Shown piece by piece: positions 44,577 through 53,598 of a stretch of DNA of 64,000 nucleotides. The stretch spans positions 1 to 64,000 of the forward strand of contig CAMBMS010000005.1 of NCBI GenBank assembly GCA_945868845.1. Direction: 5' to 3'. Under the pieces are notes generated by a model. It was not told where the DNA came from, made no database searches, and worked only from the letters and a program-made list of their open reading frames with translations. Position 1 is the stretch's first letter, and each line of letters starts with the position of its first letter. This DNA is from Asaia bogorensis (GTDB taxonomy: Bacteria > Pseudomonadota > Alphaproteobacteria > Acetobacterales > Acetobacteraceae). The translations under genes and the position numbers were made by a program.

Positions 44577-44867
44577 TGTCTCTCTCCCCAGGCTTTTCGG
44601 GTTGCCCCGGCGGTCCGCCGGTAAGGCGGCGAAGCTATAGCTACCTATCCGCAGGAAGCCGAATTCCACGCTGCTGTGCAGCCGTTTCGTCCGTGACCCA
44701 TCCCCGGCGGCGCCGAGAGCAACGAAGACGGGCCGGGCTATCGCGCAGAACCGTCATCGGTGACCCATGGCCGATAAACTAGCTCGGCAACATGCCAGTC
44801 TCTCCCATCAGGAGGCATAGTCACGCCACCACCATTCCTTAGACCGTCAATCCAAAGGGGACAAGAC

Positions 44868-45110
44868 ATGTCCCATACCCGGGCTCAACTGACACACGCG
44901 GGTACGTATCCACATGATGTCGTGCGCATGGAACAATTTTATACCAGGGTCCGAGGCCTGAGCGTCACCGATTCCGGGTGGTCGCAGCGGAACAATTCGC
45001 GCCTGACCTTTCTCAGCGCCGATCCAAGGACGCATCACCAGGTGGTGCTACTGACCGGAGGCCGGAGGAGGCGAAGAGAACTCAGTTGCCATTTGACAAA
45101 GAAATTATAT
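44868..45110 (+). pseudogene. VOC dioxygenase gene, N-terminal fragment (left of insertion)
   Basis: From ATG 44868 the frame reads MSHTRAQLTHAGTYPHDVVR, then MEQFYTRVRGLSVTDSGW and LTFLSADPRTHHQVVLLTG, a typical VOC N-terminal half. A one-base shift then gives RRPEEAKRTQLPFDKEII before a TAG at about 45110. Family homology ends there, and foreign DNA begins. The missing C-terminal half lies at 48467-48758. The frame continues by chance into the transporter gene, but the fusion is not a real protein. The 291 bp before it, after the PLP gene, hold no gene that I see. Confidence 0.75.
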
Positions 45111-45245
45111 AGTTTCTACTTTACCACGATTTGCTGTGTCGGTCGCGTGCAAAGATCGCTCCATTTCAGGCGCTTCTCCTTGGTGGCCGCGCTCATCGTT
45201 CGCCGGCATGGTTGTCTGGCAAATTCAAAAAACGGAGGAAACAAC

Positions 45246-46238
45246 ATGAAACGCAGAACCATCGTCACGAGTCTTGCCGCCGCCGCAGTCGCGGCACCGT
45301 TCGTCAAGGCGAACGCCCAGGCACCGCTCACGCTGAACGGTGCCGTTCAGTTCAACGACGACCACGCATTCAACAAGGCGCTGCTCAAGTTCGAGGAGCT
45401 GGTGAAGAAGTACTACGGCAAGCCGATCAACTTCGTGCTGCACCGCAATTCCTCGCTCGGACTCGAGAAGCAGTATTTCGAGTACATGGCGCAAGGCAAG
45501 GCGGTCGACTACAGCATCGTCTCGCCGGCGCACATGTCGACCTTCTCAAAGGCGGCACCCTTCATCGACGCGCCCTTCCTGTTCCGCGACCTCGCGCACT
45601 GGAACAAGGTGCTCGACGCCGACTTGCTGAAGCCCGTTGCCGACGAGATCGCGCAGAAGGCCGACGTCATGCTGATCGGCTACGCCGGCGGCGGCACGCG
45701 CAACATCTTCGCCAACAAGCCGGTGACCAACCTCACCGAGATCAAGGGTCTCAAGGTGCGCGTGCAGGGCGCGCCGATCTGGTCGAAGACCTTCAGCGCC
45801 GCCGGCATGGCCCCGACCGTCATCGCCTACAACGAGGTCTACAACGCCATCCAGAACAACGTTATCGCCGCCGGCGAGAACGAGGCGGCGGGTGTCGAGA
45901 CCATGAAGTTCTACGAAGTGGCGCCGCACCTTGCGATGACCGAGCACGCCATCACGATCCGGCCGATCTGTTTCTCGGGCAAGACCTTCAAGACCCTGCC
46001 CAAGGACCTGCAGGACGCCGTCATCAAGGCCGGCAAGGAGGCCGGCGCCTACGGCCGCCAGATCGAAAGCTCGGAGGACGAGCAGAAGCTCGTGGCGATG
46101 GAAAAGTCTGGCAAGCTAAAGCGTGTGCCGTTCAAGGACCGTGCGGCGATGAAGAAGCTCGTGGATCCAGTGATGGAAGCCTACGCCAAAGAGATCGGCG
46201 CCGACGCCATCTTCTCCAAGATCGTGGCTCTGAACTGA
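45246..46238 (+). CDS. TRAP transporter substrate-binding protein (DctP family)
   Basis: This periplasmic protein (330 aa) has a signal peptide (MKRRTIVTSLAAAAVAAPFV, then KANAQ). It also has a DctP-like body with GAVQFNDDHAFNKALLKFEE, GAPIWSKTFSAAGMAPTVI and YNEVYNAIQNNVIAAGENE, the substrate-contact region. It captures an organic acid or similar ligand and delivers it to the membrane part encoded next. The start is ATG 45246 with cggaggaa 6 bp upstream, a strong RBS. The ligand cannot be told from sequence. Confidence 0.9.
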   Translation: MKRRTIVTSLAAAAVAAPFVKANAQAPLTLNGAVQFNDDHAFNKALLKFEELVKKYYGKPINFVLHRNSSLGLEKQYFEYMAQGKAVDYSIVSPAHMSTFSKAAPFIDAPFLFRDLAHWNKVLDADLLKPVADEIAQKADVMLIGYAGGGTRNIFANKPVTNLTEIKGLKVRVQGAPIWSKTFSAAGMAPTVIAYNEVYNAIQNNVIAAGENEAAGVETMKFYEVAPHLAMTEHAITIRPICFSGKTFKTLPKDLQDAVIKAGKEAGAYGRQIESSEDEQKLVAMEKSGKLKRVPFKDRAAMKKLVDPVMEAYAKEIGADAIFSKIVALN

Positions 46239-46247
46239 CGTCGCGAC

Positions 46248-46279
46248 GCGCAGCGGGCACCCGGCCCGCTGCGCTTTTC
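46248..46279 (+). terminator. Intrinsic terminator/attenuator between binding protein and DctQ genes
   Basis: The arms gcgcagcggg and cccgctgcgc are perfectly complementary (10 bp) around a 7-base loop and are followed by ttttct. It lies 10 bp after the binding-protein stop and 27 bp before dctQ. In TRAP operons such elements let the binding protein be made in excess over the membrane subunits. Confidence 0.75.
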
Positions 46280-46305
46280 TCCAGCGTCGCCGGAAGGTTT
46301 TCTGA

Positions 46306-46833
46306 ATGTTGCTTTCCACTACTCCCCCGCTCGGTACTCTCGAGTCGGGATGGCGCCGGTTCACGGCTGCCTATGCACGCCTGCTGACGTTCCTGCTGGT
46401 GTGCTCGGTGGCGCTGCTCATCGTCCCGGTCACGCTGCAGATCATCTCGCGCTACACCGCGCTGATCCCGTCCTACATCTGGACCGAGGAGATGGCGCGT
46501 TTCATGTTCATCTGGCTGGTCCTGATTGGCGCCATGGTCGGCGTGCGCGAGAGCAGCCATTTCGAGGTCGATGTCTGGCCGACCCTGTCGCGCCGCAGCG
46601 AAGCTGCCGTGCGCATCGTGGCGCGGCTCGGCACGCTCGCACTGGCCGTGGTCTTCGTGTGGGCCGGTACCGAGTTCACTCGCTTTGCCTGGTATCGCAC
46701 GTCCGAGCTGGCCGACCTGCCGCTCTGGATGATCCACATCGCCTGGCCGGTGGCCGGCGTCACCTGGATCGTCTTTCTCGGTGAGCAATTTGTCGACGAG
46801 GCGCGAATCCTTTTCGGCAGGAGCACACCATGA
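46306..46833 (+). CDS. TRAP transporter small permease (DctQ family)
   Basis: This 175-aa membrane protein has four predicted helices, starting LLTFLLVCSVALLIVPVTLQ. It carries the DctQ landmark WTEEMARFMFIWLVLIGAM, then RESSHFEVD and a final helix ending in WIVFLGEQFVDEA. It pairs with DctM in the inner membrane. Its stop overlaps the dctM start by 4 bp, showing coupled translation. Confidence 0.9.
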   Translation: MLLSTTPPLGTLESGWRRFTAAYARLLTFLLVCSVALLIVPVTLQIISRYTALIPSYIWTEEMARFMFIWLVLIGAMVGVRESSHFEVDVWPTLSRRSEAAVRIVARLGTLALAVVFVWAGTEFTRFAWYRTSELADLPLWMIHIAWPVAGVTWIVFLGEQFVDEARILFGRSTP

Positions 46834-48149
46834 CCGGCTCCCTGTTCAGCGCCGGCGAGGCCGCCGCCATCCTGTTCGGTGGGTTCTTCTTGCTGCTGGT
46901 GTTGCGCGTTCCAGTCGCGATCGCACTCGGCCTGTCATGCCTGCCGCTGGCGTTCCTCGAGCCGCGACTCGGCACCATGATGATCGTCCAGGAGACGTTC
47001 AACGCCTACAACACCTTCATCCTGCTCGCGGTGCCGTTCTTCCTGCTGACGGCCAACCTGATGAGCGTGGGCGGCATCACCGACCGCCTGGTGGCGCTAT
47101 CGCGCGCCATGGTGGGAAGCTGGCCGGGCTCGCTCGCGCAGATCAACGTCGTGCTGTCGGTATTCTTCGCCGGCATCTCCGGCTCCTCGACCGCCGACGC
47201 CGCCAGCCAAAGCAAGATCTTCATCGACGCCCAAACCAGGGAGGGCTACGACCTCTCCTTCTCGATCGCCATCACCGCCGTATCGGCGGTGCTGGCAGTA
47301 ATCATTCCGCCCTCGATCCTGATGATCGTCTGGGGCGGTCTGATCTCGACTTCGATCGGCGCGCTTTATCTCGCGGGCGTCGTGCCGGGCCTGCTGATCG
47401 CCGGCGCCCAGATGGCGACGGTCCATATCTATGCTGTGCGCCGCGGCTATCCGACCTACAAGCGCGAAACGTTCCGCCAGCTGCTCTGCTCGATCTGGGT
47501 GTCGATCCCCGCGCTAATGACTCCGGTGATCATCGTCGGCGGCATCCTGGCCGGCTGGTTCACCGCCACCGAATCGGCCTGCGTCGCGGTACTGTACTCG
47601 GCTGTGCTGTCGATCGGCTTCTATCGCGCCATGGGCATGAAGGAGCTCTACAACGCGCTCCTAGACACCGGCCGGCTGGCGGCGGTGGCGCTGTTCTGCG
47701 TCGGCACGGCCTCGGCCTTCGGCTGGCTGCTGGCCTATTACAAGATCCCGCAGGGGCTGCTGGCCAACGTCACGGCCTGGGGCATGGGACCGATCGCCGT
47801 CGGCTTCTTCATCGCCTTCGTCTTCCTGGTGGTCGGCGGCTTCCTCGACGCCATTCCGGCGATCGTCATCGTCGGCACGGTGCTGGAGCCGCTCGCCAAG
47901 TCGGTCGACATGAACCCGGTGCACTTCGCCATCGTGTCGATCGTCTCGCTGGCGTTCGGCCTGGTGACGCCGCCCTACGGGCTATGTCTCATGATCTCCT
48001 GTGCCGTGGCAGGGGTGCGGCTGCGCTATGCGCTCAAGGACACGCTAATCATGCTGGTGCCGATGATGCTGGTGCTGGCGGCGATGATCATCTGGCCCGA
48101 CATCGCGCTGTTCCTGCCGCGTCTGATCGCGCCGCATCTGTTGAAGTAG
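46830..48149 (+). CDS. TRAP transporter large permease (DctM family)
   Basis: This 439-aa, 12-helix ion-coupled permease belongs to the TRAP group. Key parts are VPFFLLTANLMSVGGITDRL, FFAGISGSSTADAASQSKIF, IIPPSILMIVWGGLISTSIG and a second half with FVFLVVGGFLDAIPAIVIV and GLVTPPYGLCLMISC. It uses a sodium gradient in known members. It is the last intact gene of the foreign segment. A long overlapping frame on the same strand is only its shadow. Confidence 0.92.
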   Translation: MTGSLFSAGEAAAILFGGFFLLLVLRVPVAIALGLSCLPLAFLEPRLGTMMIVQETFNAYNTFILLAVPFFLLTANLMSVGGITDRLVALSRAMVGSWPGSLAQINVVLSVFFAGISGSSTADAASQSKIFIDAQTREGYDLSFSIAITAVSAVLAVIIPPSILMIVWGGLISTSIGALYLAGVVPGLLIAGAQMATVHIYAVRRGYPTYKRETFRQLLCSIWVSIPALMTPVIIVGGILAGWFTATESACVAVLYSAVLSIGFYRAMGMKELYNALLDTGRLAAVALFCVGTASAFGWLLAYYKIPQGLLANVTAWGMGPIAVGFFIAFVFLVVGGFLDAIPAIVIVGTVLEPLAKSVDMNPVHFAIVSIVSLAFGLVTPPYGLCLMISCAVAGVRLRYALKDTLIMLVPMMLVLAAMIIWPDIALFLPRLIAPHLLK

Positions 48150-48158
48150 AGGATTCCG

Positions 48159-48466
48159 CTAGAAGGCTCCCGCCACCGACCGCTCGCCCTGCTGGCGACG
48201 GATGGCGTGGAAGCCATCGACGGTGCGGCTCATGATCTCGGCCACGGGCAGCACCTCGTGGATCAGGCCGACGGTCTGGCCGGCGAGCGCCAGCGAGGCC
48301 TCCATGTCGCCGCCGAAATAGACGTCCTTCACGCTCTTGAAGATCGCGCGGTCGAAGCTGCCCTCGCGGTCGGTCGCCCTCGAGCGCTCAGTCTTGAGCG
48401 CCCGCACACAAGGGCTCGACTTGCGGTTCAGCATCACCGCGTCGGTGTCGTCGGCGTCGACGATCG
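48159..48466 (-). pseudogene. Nitronate monooxygenase, C-terminal fragment
   Basis: On the minus strand, IVDADDTDAVMLNRKSSPCV through SRATDREGSFDRAIFKSVKD, then GGDMEASLALAGQTVGLIHE to the stop is the C-terminal third (about 100 aa) of a nitronate monooxygenase/2-nitropropane dioxygenase. The flavin-binding barrel is missing. The sequence upstream turns at once into the antisense of the VOC gene. The gene was therefore cut when the segment joined. It is convergent to dctM, 9 bp away. Confidence 0.75.
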
Positions 48467-48758
48467 CTGGAAGAACTGCGCCAGGTGCGGGACGGGACGC
48501 TGGCTGAGGGGACATCGGGCATACGGATCACCACGCATGGCAATGCCTGATCGATCTATTTCTCCGACCCCAAGGGCAATACGGTAGAAGCCTATCTGGC
48601 TGCGCCTTTCCATATGCCGCAGCCCTTTGGCGAGCCATTCGATCTGGTTGCGTCGGACGCGGAGATCCCACGGGCGACGGAGGTGCGCTACCGCCAGAAC
48701 CCCGGCTTTACGCCGCGCGCCACGCGGGAAGAAGGACAAATGGGGAAGTTGAGCGGGT
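48467..48758 (+). pseudogene. VOC dioxygenase gene, C-terminal fragment (right of insertion)
   Basis: From about 48467 the plus strand reads LEELRQVRDGTLAEGTSGIR, ITTHGNA, a TGA stop (where relatives have Trp), SIYFSDPKGNTVEAYLAAPF, HMPQPFGEPFDL and a tail ending GQMGKLSG with TAA. This is the C-terminal half of the gene begun at 44868: the SIYF-DP-GN-E block includes the metal-binding Glu (E in VEAY). It has lost its start and contains an extra stop. Confidence 0.75.
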
Positions 48759-48792
48759 AAACCGCGCGCGAGGCCTGTGCTATAGGGGGCCG

Positions 48793-53512: not shown

Positions 53513-53598
53513 GCGGTCGTGGCGGAATGGTAGACGCGCAAGCTTGAGGTGCTTGTGGGGGAAACCTCGTGGAAGTTCGAGTCTTCTCGACCGCACCA
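53513..53598 (+). tRNA. tRNA-Leu (anticodon GAG)
   Basis: The acceptor arm gcggtcg (53513-53519) pairs with cgaccgc (53588-53594). The anticodon stem caagc/gcttg encloses ttgaggt, giving anticodon GAG for CTC and CTT codons. A long variable arm and the ttcgag T-loop mark a class II tRNA. Discriminator A and CCA are encoded (53595-53598). The total is 86 nt. It is divergent from lipB. Confidence 0.95.

Follow-up and report, generated by a model that had tools for sequence, protein, structure and literature searches.

A Reyranella-type TRAP transporter segment splits a VOC gene in Asaia bogorensis and was probably captured by illegitimate joining at both ends

The window analysed here is a stretch of 64,000 nucleotides of Asaia bogorensis (assembly GCA_945868845.1, contig CAMBMS010000005.1, positions 1 to 64,000), in which two parts of a gene for a protein of the VOC superfamily lie on either side of an inserted segment of about 3.4 kb. 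The segment carries an operon for a tripartite ATP-independent periplasmic (TRAP) transporter, preceded by a putative promoter block and followed, in convergent orientation, by the 3' end of a nitronate monooxygenase (NMO) gene (Table 1). An earlier note on this DNA, made from its letters and open reading frames, had described a single VOC gene split by a foreign insertion. The insertion itself is nearly certain, and we consider it likely that a fragment of a Reyranella-like chromosome was captured by illegitimate joining at both of its ends, with a small deletion of the target.

Table 1. Features at the split VOC gene and in its surroundings (positions in the window)
Feature	Position	Strand	Remarks
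Remnant of another broken gene, about 35 last codons	44625-44729	-	77% identity to L118:2683-2991
VOC gene, N-terminal part	44868-45058	+	Ends ...HHQVVLLTG; about residues 1-64 of intact homologues
Left joint zone, possible first codons of the divergent donor SulP permease gene	45059-45092	-	Minus-strand ATG 45092-45090
Putative donor promoter block, CATTTGAC...	45090-45120	+	Similar block upstream of TRAP genes in many Reyranella-type loci
dctP, TRAP substrate-binding protein, intact	45246-46238	+	PF03480, 2.6e-54; up to 93% identity to Reyranella-type loci
dctQ, TRAP small permease, intact	46306-46833	+	PF04290, 1.4e-26
dctM, TRAP large permease, intact	46830-48149	+	PF06808, 6.4e-89
NMO gene, convergent 3' end	48159-48467	-	Last 102 codons (48162-48467) and stop; cut at 48467
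VOC gene, C-terminal part	48468-48760	+	Stop 48758-48760; complementary region of the same homologues; in-frame TGA 48548-48550

Tblastn searches align the two VOC pieces to different, complementary regions of one set of intact homologues (L024-L030; for example L024, L025, L026 and L027 at 47-58% identity), which bears out the claim that one gene was divided. The intact homologues contain the glyoxalase domain PF00903 (4.4e-14 in L024 and 9.8e-14 in L026), and it is through them that the gene is assigned to the VOC superfamily; neither half gave a Pfam match when searched alone. In a joint alignment, the stretch missing from the window begins with the R of the GRP motif and ends immediately ahead of xLxxL. 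It measures 18 residues in 17 of the 19 homologues, the pattern failing to read the remaining two. About 18 residues (about 54 bp) of the target were thus lost, rather than the 10-15 first estimated. The gene is broken, because it is split and because its C-terminal half contains an in-frame TGA. Conserved columns give no evidence of strong decay of the two halves: 4 of 40 invariant columns are changed, which is inside the range of the intact homologues, and with five references the count was 4 to 8 of 41 to 51 columns, against 1 to 13 of 44 to 56 in the intact homologues themselves. Since the column changes stay within that range, only the TGA and the break mark the gene as dead. In the relative G021 (L125:6056-7695), a VOC homologue is found directly after an unrelated dctM (26% identity), showing that VOC and TRAP genes can adjoin.

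All three TRAP frames are open and each matches its Pfam family, so that DctP, DctQ and DctM together form the complete transporter that had been claimed. Compared with other DctP-DctQ-DctM transporters there is nothing unusual in it; it is odd only in its location. The closest solved structure to DctP is 4nx1/4ovp (E-value 1.7e-101), whose ligand we take to be a uronate; a literature search for 4OVP returned nothing. An ATG of its own opens dctP at 45246, preceded by GGAGGA (45234-45239), and the operon, still open, may be able to function. The VOC N-terminal half runs in frame across the joint into dctP, giving a single open frame of 456 residues (44868-46238), an accidental fusion. The NMO piece is 86% identical to L042 and 79% to the L047 protein. 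By itself it has no Pfam match, and its name is taken from full-length relatives, such as the NMO of L047 (PF03060, 1e-57).

The segment differs from its surroundings in composition. The G+C content of third codon positions (GC3) is 0.90 in dctP, 0.84 in dctQ, 0.90 in dctM and 0.93 in the NMO piece, as against a mean of 0.723 (sd 0.049, range 0.616-0.814) in 43 window genes outside the region; this set comprises 46 mechanical calls less 3 removed by a codon-position filter, and the unfiltered calls have a mean of 0.711 and a maximum of 0.814. The VOC pieces themselves have values of 0.67 and 0.73. The GC3 jump expected across the segment is therefore present. The excess of C-ending codons that had been noticed earlier holds as a jump in composition, but C at third positions (C3) alone is less decisive than GC3, as it reaches 0.52 in other window genes. 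In Reyranella massiliensis, dctP has a GC3 of 0.89, like the segment.

A scan of genome contigs for TRAP loci gave at least 593 pattern matches, 572 of which were confirmed and the best 80 used. The closest of these 80 are mostly Reyranella or Reyranella-like records, with DctP identities of 85-93%; some close records are oddly labelled (Asaia), and one Hyphomicrobiaceae record is 89% identical over part of DctP. In a tree of DctP and DctM (74 of 85 loci plus the window; a quick method without bootstrap), the window groups with L050 and L058 (SH-aLRT 99, three rows) and falls inside a set of 19 rows (SH-aLRT 96) that are named Reyranella or carry broader names. RarA, encoded just downstream of the region, is 71-72% identical to that of two Reyranella genomes, and the same genomes match DctP at 88-89% and DctM at 87-91%. 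The window RarA is 89% identical to that of the genus mate G001, compared with 74% for Stella and 71-78% for four family members. Among the matches listed from 100 genomes, the best DctP match outside the own genome is 76% identical. By composition and phylogeny, the segment is of Reyranella-type origin.

The right end of the segment can be read directly from the donor-type loci. Among the 45 best blastn rows, homology to the donor loci begins at about 45233. Eighteen loci share a stopping point at 48467, and one more reaches 48468; in other close loci homology ends near 48150, at the end of dctM, and in L052 it ends with the contig. Mean identity to the 19 loci, which were selected for matches reaching this point, drops from 0.90 to 0.24 at 48467/48468. 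In steps of 20 bp it is 0.83, 0.76, 0.86 and 0.90 up to 48466, and 0.24, 0.37 and 0.34 in the next three. Since homology stops at 48467 while the donor NMO gene extends past it, the segment end cuts that gene. By donor comparison, the right joint is placed to the base, at 48467/48468, within one base of the boundary of 48466 proposed earlier. Judged from the codons of the homologues, the native joint sequence being lost, a microhomology of 0 to 4 bp (TCGC) is possible there.

The left joint lies farther upstream than the 45110 given in the earlier note. The VOC gene can be traced to 45058 and the donor block starts at 45090, which would place the joint between 45058 and about 45090, a range of about 30 bp. 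Upstream of the donor TRAP genes this block reads CATTTGACTAAA or similar, with an AT-rich continuation; in 13 of 14 chosen loci the CATTT anchor is present and the block could be aligned, whereas some of 28 loci inspected (for example L061) show no such block. The operon thus probably carried its own donor promoter along. A divergent SulP-like frame begins at the block in 16 of 18 donor loci, as judged by eye, and a Pfam check of this frame on one locus, L058, gave PF00916 (8.2e-84). The minus-strand codons in the joint zone are weak evidence that the first few codons of the SulP gene are included, and the left donor end probably lies just inside its start.

We looked for the undisturbed site in relatives. 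The genus mate G001 (85% complete), the only other genome of the genus compared, has both flanks (84% and 80% DNA identity) without a TRAP segment between them. This locus is decayed, keeping only the VOC tail beside a longer remnant of another gene (L118:2683-2991), the last 35 codons of which also persist in the window at 44625-44729, and G001 therefore offers no clean empty site. The VOC query matched at E <=1e-15 in 34 of 397 family genomes, the own genome included; outside the own genome, no listed match exceeds 51% identity, and none is a close allele. Relatives with TRAP genes between two VOC genes were also sought, as a contrary outcome: tblastn at an E-value of 0.01 gave no VOC match in the 80 TRAP loci, many of which are short or ended by contig edges.

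The segment lacks the marks of a mobile element. Open frames of at least 80 residues within it match only TRAP families in Pfam, or nothing, and none is a mobility gene; no tRNA is found at the segment ends, the only one of the window being at 53513; and no exact repeat above 6 bp is common to the joint regions. One inexact inverted pair (I7) touches the right joint, its partner lying inside dctM. A transposon, insertion sequence or integron was rejected, as no transposase gene, terminal inverted repeat, target duplication or joint repeat was found, and likewise an integrative element or prophage, with no integrase and no tRNA at the ends. The view of a cargo-only insertion thus stands with regard to mobility genes and joint repeats; it does not with regard to content, the segment ending inside the donor NMO gene and so holding more than the TRAP operon.

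These results are best accounted for, in our view, by a single event in which a fragment of about 3.4 kb of a Reyranella-like chromosome would have entered the cell and been joined into the VOC gene at places without extended homology, with about 54 bp of the target lost. The right donor end would lie inside the NMO gene and the left one probably just inside the start of the SulP gene, so that the TRAP operon would have arrived whole, only the tail of the NMO gene would have come along, and the VOC gene would have been broken. The right end of the segment falls within a donor gene, as the left end probably does too, which would make the segment a random-ended piece of chromosome rather than a defined cargo unit. 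With non-homologous joints on both sides, the left one less exact, and a short loss of target, it has the form that double illegitimate recombination would give. The joining would have proceeded without Ku, by alternative end joining or a similar process.

Several observations weigh against this account. Of the 18 donor loci, 2 (L040 and L060) carry a different gene at the SulP position. The window codons past the block bear only a loose resemblance to the SulP start, a stretch that varies among the donors too, and the homology is short and weak. In 3 of the 19 NMO loci (L051, L043 and L061) other DNA separates dctM from the NMO gene, and L050 and L058, the closest neighbours of the window in the tree, have no NMO gene directly after dctM. 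The best partners also differ, being L039 for DctP (93%) and L050 for DctM (94.5%). Because of this difference and the missing NMO neighbour, we regard the exact donor as unsampled; it may be a mosaic. Neither an intact VOC allele nor an empty site at the locus was found in the 397 family genomes or the two genomes of the genus. Finally, no match to Ku (PF02735; a thin control, with 1 of 14 positive, Bacillus subtilis), ComEC (PF03772; control 10 of 14) or DprA (PF02481; control 11 of 14) was obtained in this genome, whose completeness is rated at 100%, so that none of the machinery searched for accounts for entry or joining.

The last of these points bears on how the DNA could have entered and been joined. 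Ku-dependent end joining is disfavoured, as the genome gave no Ku match in a search with a thin control. Gene transfer agents carry fragments of about 4 kb, and delivery by such an agent was raised by the size of the segment; it is weakened by the failure to find ComEC and DprA. According to PMC10883770, ComEC, ComF and DprA are required for the receipt of RcGTA. Natural transformation and receipt from a gene transfer agent are both disfavoured, since they call for ComEC and DprA and searches of this genome gave neither. A search of 30 genomes returned ComEC in 26, the misses being this genome, G001, G010 and G067; competence may be lost in the genus. Either the genes for ComEC, DprA and Ku would have been lost after the event, or another route for DNA and other joining enzymes would have been used.

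The main alternative is that a mobile element, whether plasmid, prophage, integrative element or transposon, brought the segment in and has since disappeared by loss or deletion, with the donor piece left behind. The genome having no ComEC or DprA match for the uptake of naked DNA speaks for such a vehicle, as does the presence of related TRAP genes on plasmids, though the top-ranked match extends over 54% of the query, with 68% identity. However, neither a mobility gene nor a terminal repeat was found, nor a target duplication or a tRNA beside the segment, and two joints separated by only about 54 bp of one gene are explained better by a single insertion than by an insertion followed by two trimming deletions; we consider this history unlikely. 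Another alternative is a joint first formed in another strain or species and then brought in by homologous recombination through the flanks. General recombination would suffice for this in a genome in which competence and Ku genes were not found, but no other VOC gene split in this manner was listed in the 397 family genomes or the two of the genus, and such a route merely shifts the illegitimate step elsewhere; we hold it to be improbable.

An assembly error, in which contaminating Reyranella DNA was misjoined into the contig, was judged from the assembly alone, whose division into 49 contigs speaks for it. However, the contig would have to be wrongly joined twice within about 54 bp of a single gene, and the stated contamination is 0.6%. 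The donor neighbours were not found elsewhere in the assembly either, where the next NMO match is 33% identical and SulP has no match (in a search without a positive control). Such an error is therefore very improbable. Two separate VOC genes around a native TRAP operon, without any insertion, might be suggested by the arrangement in G021, but the halves are complementary, the C-terminal half is stopped by a TGA, and the point at which the VOC gene resumes is precisely where homology to the donors breaks off within one of their genes. The complementary alignment rules out two genes, and we find this reading hardly credible.

Capture by illegitimate joining at both ends has known counterparts. 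Hulter and Wackernagel reportedly described, in 2008, double illegitimate recombination of foreign DNA during transformation of Acinetobacter baylyi, which resembles the present case in that foreign DNA was joined at both ends without extended homology. In contrast, the event at the VOC gene would be a natural one between two bacterial lineages, is of kilobase size, and has its right joint defined by donor comparison, in a genome without a ComEC or DprA match. Homology-facilitated illegitimate recombination, which de Vries and Wackernagel are said to have reported in 2002, likewise replaces a short target stretch by a foreign segment, but it needs a homologous anchor on one side, and no anchor is visible on either side of the segment. 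It is disfavoured here, as donor identity is at background past the right joint and no VOC match lies near the donor TRAP genes, the true donor being unsampled. According to a paper citing this work, transposition was commoner during transformation than illegitimate recombination with fully foreign DNA. A literature search for Reyranella, horizontal transfer and TRAP found nothing.

When genes pass between distantly related bacteria, mobile elements or homologous recombination are usually held responsible. With one donor boundary inside a gene and fixed to the base, and the other within about 30 bp, the event can be read as a random-ended capture, and the locus seems to preserve a clear trace of an event of a known type that is seldom caught. 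This suggests that an entire transport operon can be acquired by such a capture, the price being a single host gene. Because ComEC, DprA and Ku are apparently missing, the route of entry and joining can be put directly to the test. A much bolder proposal, that a lineage without Ku, ComEC and DprA takes up kilobase-sized, random-ended pieces of foreign chromosome and splices them into its own by an unrecognised route, and that this is an overlooked source of complete transport operons, strikes us as a long shot.

The gene remnant upstream of the VOC gene (Table 1) presumably derives from an extradiol dioxygenase of the LigB/DODA kind; a search of the remnant in Pfam and NCBIfam gave no match. 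In both species, the DNA that separates the BhcC-like gene from rarA seems to be undergoing decay.

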